Both the position numbers and the translations under genes were made by a program. A DNA stretch of 64,000 bases, taken from the NCBI RefSeq assembly GCF_003933745.1, contig NZ_RSEB01000003.1, positions 806,001 to 870,000 of the forward strand, read 5' to 3'. Numbering within the stretch: position 1 is the first letter of the stretch; every line of letters starts with the position of its first letter. The notes under the pieces are model-generated. The model did no database searches and was not told the DNA's origin. It saw only the letters and a list, made by a program, of their open reading frames with translations. Source of the DNA: Glycomyces terrestris (GTDB lineage: Bacteria > Actinomycetota > Actinomycetes > Mycobacteriales > Micromonosporaceae). Below are positions 52,527-54,040 of this stretch, piece after piece.

Positions 52527-52564
52527 ACCCCGGGCCGCCGCCAGGCGGCCTGGGGTACCGTCCG

Positions 52565-53012
52565 CCGGGCTTCCGGGCTTCCGGGCTTCCGGGCTTCCGG
52601 GCTTCCGGGCTTCCGGGCTTCCGGGCTTCCGGGCTTCCGGGCTTCCGGGCTTCCGGGCTTCCGGGCTTCCGGGCTTCCGGGCTTCCGGGCTTCCGGGCTT
52701 CCGGGCTTCCGGGCTTCCGGGCTTCCGGGCTTCCGGGCTTCCGGGCTTCCGGGCTTCCGGGCTTCCGGGCTTCCGGGCTTCCGGGCTTCCGGGCTTCCGG
52801 GCTTCCGGGCTTCCGGGCTTCCGGGCTTCCGGGCTTCCGGGCTTCCGGGCTTCCGGGCTTCCGGGCTTCCGGGCTTCCGGGCTTCCGGGCTTCCGGGCTT
52901 CCGGGCTTCCGGGCTTCCGGGCTTCCGGGCTTCCGGGCTTCCGGGCTTCCGGGCTTCCGGGCTTCCGGGCTTCCGGGCTTCCGGGCTTGCGGGCTTCCGG
53001 GCTTCCGGGCTC
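52565..53012. repeat. Tandem array of 56 copies of an 8-bp unit (CCGGGCTT)
   Basis: CCGGGCTT repeats with no interruption from 52565 to 53012, exactly 448 bases or 56 units. Only two units differ: copy 54 (52989-52996) begins GCGGGCTT and copy 56 (53005-53012) ends in C. The array is in the gap between the rhomboid gene and the MobA-like gene. Because the unit is 8 bases, all three frames on each strand are open, so long ORFs seen there are artefacts of the repeat. Confidence 0.97.
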
Positions 53013-53289
53013 GGTTCTCAGTTCTCAGTTCGACCCCGTCCGGCTTCCCCGGTTTCGAGGTCGAGGTGTTCGGGCTTGACTCGCGTCTTCGAAGGGCCCC
53101 TCCCCCCCCACCCCCCAGCCCCACCCGCCCGAAGTCGAATTGCCTGCATGGTCGTGAGGGCCGCCGCTTTGGCGGTGGCCGGCGGTCGTCGTTGACCGCC
53201 CTGGTTGCAGCGGGCGCCACTCGGCGATCGCGCGACGCGCATCCCGGATAGGCCAGGCGTCGCGGTTCGTCAGGTGGGCGTCGGTGCCG
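53013..53289. other. Right flank of the repeat, no gene
   Basis: Contains a duplicated TTCTCAG (about 53016-53028), a C-rich tract around 53095-53125 and further GC-rich sequence. No coding signal. Together with the array it makes up most of the 763-base gap between the rhomboid and mobA-like stops. Confidence 0.5.
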
Positions 53290-53904
53290 CTATTTCAGCT
53301 CCGCGGCCCAGGTGCGGGCCTGGTCGAGGTCTTCCGGGGTGTCGCAGTCGAACCATGGGGGCGGACTCGCGTCCTCCCAGGTCACGGTCTCGACCTCGAT
53401 CCCGGTGAACAGGAGCCGCGCGGGGGCTCCCGGTTCGACCTCGGCCGCGTTGCGGCGCAGCCGGTCCGTCGGCCAGACGCCGCACAGCCACTGCCGGCGG
53501 CCGGCGTTGTCGCAGAAGACCGCTCCGGCCTCGGGCCCCGCCGCGTCCGCGGTGTCGACGAGGAGGCGCAGCGCCTCCGGCGACAGGAACGGGAGGTCCC
53601 CGGCCAGGACCGCCACGCGGGTGCAGTCCTCCGGAACCAGTTCCAGACCGGTCCTCACCGACCGCGCCGGGCCCGAACCCGGCGGGTCCTCGAGGACCTG
53701 GACCGCCCCTTCGGGTAGGGGCGCGGCGTCGGCGGGCCTCGTGCCCACGACCACGCGGGCGGCCGCGCCCGCGCAGGCCGCCAGGGCCCGTTCGAGGATC
53801 GTGGTGCCCGCGACGGACAGTTCGCTCTTCGCGCATCCGGCGAATCGCCGGGCCTTGCCGCCGACCAGGAGGATCGCGGCGAAATCGCTCGGGAGTTCAC
53901 CCAT
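53290..53904 (-). CDS. mobA: MobA-like NTP transferase
   Basis: 204 residues. Nucleotidyltransferase fold start AAILLVGGKARRFAGCAKSE (GG-x-R/K motif), GTTILERALAACAGAAARVV, a metal-binding LAGDLPFLSPEAL and C-terminal WFDCDTPEDLDQAR. These fit molybdenum cofactor guanylyltransferase, which attaches GMP to molybdopterin. The usual LAGGxSxRMGxDK is modified to LVGGKARRFAGCAK, so the nucleotide specificity may differ. No molybdenum genes are adjacent. Confidence 0.72.
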   Translation of the reverse strand: MGELPSDFAAILLVGGKARRFAGCAKSELSVAGTTILERALAACAGAAARVVVGTRPADAAPLPEGAVQVLEDPPGSGPARSVRTGLELVPEDCTRVAVLAGDLPFLSPEALRLLVDTADAAGPEAGAVFCDNAGRRQWLCGVWPTDRLRRNAAEVEPGAPARLLFTGIEVETVTWEDASPPPWFDCDTPEDLDQARTWAAELK

Positions 53905-54010: not shown

Positions 54011-54040
54011 CGGTTGCGGTTGCGGTTGCGGTTGCGGTTC
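54011..54040. repeat. Hexanucleotide repeat (CGGTTG)4-CGGTTC
   Basis: Five consecutive 6-base units, 54011-54040, in the gap between the mobA-like and DUF4192 genes. A short slipped-strand repeat. Confidence 0.9.

Follow-up and report, generated by a model that had tools for sequence, protein, structure and literature searches.

Long, nearly pure short-unit tandem arrays in Glycomyces terrestris and an orthologous intergenic gap where unrelated arrays appear to form repeatedly

In a 64,000-nucleotide stretch of the Glycomyces terrestris chromosome (the window; contig C9:806001-870000 of a 5.24-Mb genome in 15 contigs), we find a long, nearly pure tandem array of the 8-bp unit CCGGGCTT between a rhomboid protease gene and a convergently transcribed mobA-like gene (Table 1). 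The array is a long example of a kind of repeat that is already known; the interesting part is that arrays recur in this one gap with different units. We propose that it is a young, fast-turning simple-sequence array (VNTR) at a locus of recurrent arrays, probably aided by a nearby C-rich tract and most likely near-neutral, and we regard this reading as the likely one.

Direct comparison of the 448 bp with (CCGGGCTT)56 leaves exactly two differences, 52989 C>G and 53012 T>C, so the 56-copy array with two single-base changes that a preliminary description of the window had claimed is exact. The first 53 units are identical and are followed by one GCGGGCTT, one CCGGGCTT and a last CCGGGCTC, placing both substitutions near the right end, and TRF reports 55.9 copies with 99% matches and a score of 887. 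The array is thus a simple-sequence tandem repeat, a short unit repeated head to tail well beyond chance. Its homogeneity implies recent expansion, in agreement with the earlier suggestion that it is recent or actively homogenized, and the Pfam matches of both neighbors bear out its claimed placement between rhomboid and mobA-like genes. Rhomboid orthologs are present in 20 of the 21 other Glycomyces. The array starts 38 bp past the rhomboid stop codon, 9 bp past a 12-bp GC hairpin, and lies 277 bp from the mobA stop. It is not a CRISPR array, as the units are contiguous and without spacers, nor a quadruplex heptamer of the GGGNATC type, as the unit CCGGGCTT is 8 bp long and contributes a single GGG, with a spacing of 5 between successive ones; the C-rich tract of this gap, which is quadruplex-prone, is outside the array. 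Elsewhere in the window, at about 26.65 kb, a cluster of DnaA-box-like sites marks a probable origin.

Table 1. Features of the rhomboid-mobA region of the window, and other arrays of the genome and of the same gap in other Glycomyces
Feature	Coordinates	Strand	Basis or remark
Rhomboid-family protease gene, 312 aa	51588..52526	+	Pfam PF01694, E 6e-31
Terminator-like GC hairpin 3' of rhomboid, CCCCGGGCCGCC-GCCA-GGCGGCCTGGGG	52528..52555	+	Read from sequence
Tandem array, 56 x CCGGGCTT (8 bp)	52565..53012	.	Substitutions at 52989 and 53012 only
C-rich tract, GGGCCCC head	53096..53131	+	G-quadruplex motif on minus strand
MobA-like NTP transferase gene, convergent with rhomboid	53290..53904	-	Pfam PF12804, E 5.2e-24
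Short perfect array, CGGTTG x4.8	54011..54039	.	Other side of mobA, before DUF4192 gene
TGCCGGA x70.7, 495 bp, G. terrestris (G000)	C14:33033-33527 (L135:13033-13527)		Longer than window array
CGTTGAG x80, 562 bp, G. terrestris (G000)	C8:22402-22963 (L163:2402-2963)		Longer than window array
Rhomboid-mobA gap array, G015: GCGTTCCCTGAGTC			14-mer, at contig end
Rhomboid-mobA gap array, G011: TTCGTGGC			
Rhomboid-mobA gap array, L059: GCCGGA			
Rhomboid-mobA gap array, L054: GCGATGGC			

The evidence for recurrence comes from the same gap in other species. Four copies of CCGGGCTT in succession are absent from all 21 other Glycomyces, and even three in succession are found in only 2 of 201 genomes sampled from the family and 2 of 396 sampled from the phylum (G. 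terrestris being counted in each), and in one viral contig. At least four other Glycomyces instead carry different arrays in the rhomboid-mobA gap (Table 1), two further species (L058 and L062) have 8-bp arrays beyond mobA, on its far side from this gap, and several species have the gap without an array. To ask how local this is, we considered 20-kb loci from 15 other species, which were picked because of G. terrestris and regardless of their own arrays. The loci contain four arrays called intergenic, and each of them lies in one of the two gaps next to mobA (an unclassifiable cluster at a contig end, L055, is outside this count). The gaps flanking mobA make up 6.4 of the 50.6 kb of intergenic DNA (12.7%), and the chance of four out of four is ~3e-4. 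With one genome per species, the comparison speaks to presence or absence among species only. These sequence comparisons suggest that the rhomboid-mobA gap is a locus of repeated, unrelated array formation across Glycomyces species. In the closest relative in the named collection, G. dulcitolivorans (G007; ~92% DNA identity nearby), the stretch from the hairpin to the C-rich tract holds no array, and the contig ends at the tract. Elsewhere in that genome (L204:433-505 and 767-840) lie two perfect 6-bp arrays, GGTGCG x12 and TGTCGG x12, ~260 bp apart, indicating that array formation also takes place in a close relative.

Nor is the array an isolated oddity: arrays of this kind are numerous in the genus and in its own genome. 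In 2.35 of the 5.24 Mb we searched for perfect arrays with a period of 5-14 that comprise 3 or more copies and 24 bp or more, and find 15, 12 of them non-coding; when 2.3 Mb of the genome was simulated with a third-order Markov model, no perfect array of this minimum length and copy number arose. Periods are 7 (six arrays), 6 (three), 8, 5, 12 and 13. Two arrays exceed the one in the window (Table 1). In the first example, the TGCCGGA array has no internal variant and lies between convergent genes that read as an NAD-binding/NmrA-like protein and a sigma-70-family factor. In the second, the CGTTGAG array starts 15 bp past the stop of a DnaJ-like gene and comprises 77 pure units followed by variants at the right end only. 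Of the three long arrays, two thus have their imperfect units at the right end only, and the third has none. Units are 6 or 12 bp long in the three arrays within called genes, and the non-coding units are mostly not multiples of three. Using gene calls from a simple codon-usage script, we classified 10 of the non-coding arrays by gap type: five are in convergent gaps, five in co-directional gaps and none in divergent gaps, and the sites of the remaining two are incompatible with a divergent gap. Convergent gaps account for 17% and divergent gaps for 34% of intergenic base pairs, giving binomial P values of ~0.015 for the convergent excess and ~0.006 for the divergent absence. This pattern is as expected of arrays that are tolerated where they are harmless. 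A separate run of simple sequence opens contig C14 (L113:1-85), where 61 G are followed by an AG-repeat run, either a real homopolymer or a sequencing or assembly artifact.

How far the assembled length can be trusted is a separate issue, and the possibility that it was made by the assembler, raised in the preliminary description, gains support here. The 16S-23S operon forms its own 5,072-bp contig, which shares 48-63 bp with the ends of three others, implying that 5 kb was not spanned in the assembly. By length, the arrays form two groups, one of up to 137 bp (perfect arrays up to 90 bp) and one of 447, 495 and 562 bp, and nothing lies between 137 and 447 bp. Both observations indicate that the assembly is probably a short-read assembly. 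The alternative is therefore that a real array of CCGGGCTT, shorter or longer than the one assembled, was expanded or collapsed at a short-read loop or during gap filling. Contigs that end inside arrays within the genus (C9 of G. terrestris, L055 of G. harbinensis and C11 of G015) are in keeping with this, but with so few arrays the rarity of intermediate lengths could be due to chance. Some array must in any case exist, given that both flanks join the same unit and that a variant unit was assembled near the right end. We judge an assembler-made length to be a serious possibility, with odds a little short of even. The array itself is real, and its 56 copies are to be read as "many" and not as a measurement; the true number we infer.

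As to the origin of the young, fast-turning array that we favor, a short sequence in an unconstrained gap between convergent genes may have been duplicated by chance and may then have grown by replication slippage, unequal exchange or both. We base slippage or exchange on the homogeneity of the array, the species-specific units and the known behavior of such repeats, and the same turnover would uphold the homogeneity. Loops would be left in place for want of MutS/MutL. The MutS_I domain was not found in G. terrestris, while 11 of 14 control genomes were positive. MutS is lacking in Actinobacteria generally, and its lack therefore explains by itself neither why Glycomyces would have more arrays nor the hotspot. 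The NucS_C domain is present in all 22 Glycomyces genomes, which excludes loss of NucS as the source of instability, and NucS is reported to be unable to correct indels (PMC8228993). With no MutS match and a NucS that reportedly does not act on indels, slippage loops of 5-8 bases would stay unrepaired. The resulting array would most likely be selectively near-neutral and is probably without function.

The neighboring quadruplex-prone C-rich tract probably helps this process. Most Glycomyces examined have a tract such as GGGGCCCTCCCCCCCGCCCCCACCC in the rhomboid-mobA gap. Tracts of this type are scarce in the sampled genome; one lies 108 bp from the window array, another 112 bp from the TGCCGGA array (right side), and a shorter one ~70 bp from a GGTGCGG array at the end of C9. 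Five of the 12 non-coding arrays have a quadruplex motif no more than 200 bp away, compared to 11% of random intergenic points, and a test of C/G richness within 200 bp of arrays yields P = 0.02, which becomes 0.10 when the two window arrays are left out. Several arrays have no C-rich tract nearby. The association comes from few cases, and because the tract was noticed beside arrays before being tested, we treat the link as a lead and not as a result. A stronger version, in which the conserved tract is a replication-stalling site that repeatedly seeds and expands new arrays of arbitrary local sequence next to it, and in which its copies elsewhere do likewise, is unlikely in our estimate. If it were true, the tract would be a heritable hotspot that produces satellites de novo in a bacterial chromosome. 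The tract is followed by a block with two inverted repeats (window 53160-53230) that is conserved at the gap in many Glycomyces and is possibly the mobA terminator. The tract and inverted repeats together are not a genome-wide dispersed repeat, as a 141-bp query matches a single place in the genome; the C-rich head alone recurs at a handful of sites. In another genus of the family (G149, L115:9498-9647), CCGGAAGC x7 is followed by CCGGAGGC x11 and directly by a G-rich tract, giving another example of an array adjoining quadruplex-prone sequence.

A regulatory or structural role, in which the array serves as a substitute terminator, as a spacer against transcription collision, or as a tuner of rhomboid or mobA expression in the manner of the clbR VNTR, seems to us improbable. 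The array does sit between convergent genes, at a hairpin that has no T-run and was not called by a terminator scan in which a T-run is obligatory; in G. dulcitolivorans the hairpin is followed by T-rich sequence, and in the window by the array. An array transcript could fold into a long stem, and an 8-bp VNTR in E. coli alters clbR expression about two-fold (PMC7364221). However, the array folds no better than shuffled sequences (z of 0.40 and -0.33 as RNA, -0.56 and -1.67 as DNA), its unit is conserved in no other Glycomyces while several species have no array in the gap, and the long arrays of the genome share no unit. A search for promoters at the array found none. Across the 12 non-coding arrays, TAnnnT is found in three left flanks and no right flank against a null of 2.5% per side, too weak for a promoter at the array edge, and the -10-like left flanks are partly due to stop codons (TAG) and gene ends. 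An Rfam search returned only a sub-threshold narK match (E 0.94). With the array past the rhomboid stop, 277 bp beyond that of mobA and with no promoter found, a phase-variable contingency locus is likewise rejected. Far less probable still is an extension or phase variation of the rhomboid protein by slippage, the extension having been called conceivable in the preliminary description. No stop interrupts any of the six frames through the array, in line with that description, but the stop codon of the gene and the hairpin come ahead of the array, such that array length cannot alter the frame before the stop, and most orthologs in which the 3' end was read have their stop at the equivalent position and carry no array.

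Among known systems, the young array that we propose has several relatives. The GGGNATC heptamers of Xanthomonas and Nostoc also form head-to-tail arrays of a short unit (7 bp), are mostly intergenic, are under-represented between divergent genes and vary in copy number, but they usually have four copies and at most 26 (PMC4692102). They belong to one unit family genome-wide, whereas in Glycomyces the unit differs per locus and 53-77 pure units are assembled. TAACTGA repeats of Beggiatoaceae, Cyanobacteria and Bacteroidetes are likewise intergenic and reach 43 copies in some species; their unit is fixed and in Beggiatoaceae lies mostly just upstream of start codons, as opposed to varied units near gene 3' ends in Glycomyces (PMC4679880). 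The E. coli clbR VNTR has an intergenic 8-bp unit in a variable number of 2-20 copies, but is located in a promoter/5' UTR and affects expression, while the Glycomyces array separates the ends of convergent genes and is longer as assembled (PMC7364221). Archaeal Borg repeats are also perfect, independently arising and locus-specific, with in-gene units divisible by three; the Borg units quoted are 18-21 bp, A-enriched and extrachromosomal, whereas those of Glycomyces are 5-14 bp, GC-rich and chromosomal (PMC9879509).

A survey of prokaryotic satellites found few in most species (PMC6749651). Long, nearly pure arrays of 5-8 bp units are unusual in bacteria, and the genus Glycomyces seems to form them at one orthologous gap. 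Such loci may be broken or mis-sized in short-read Glycomyces assemblies. If copy number is variable, the array would provide a strain-typing marker and a natural assay of how unstable repeats are in a bacterium that has no MutS match.
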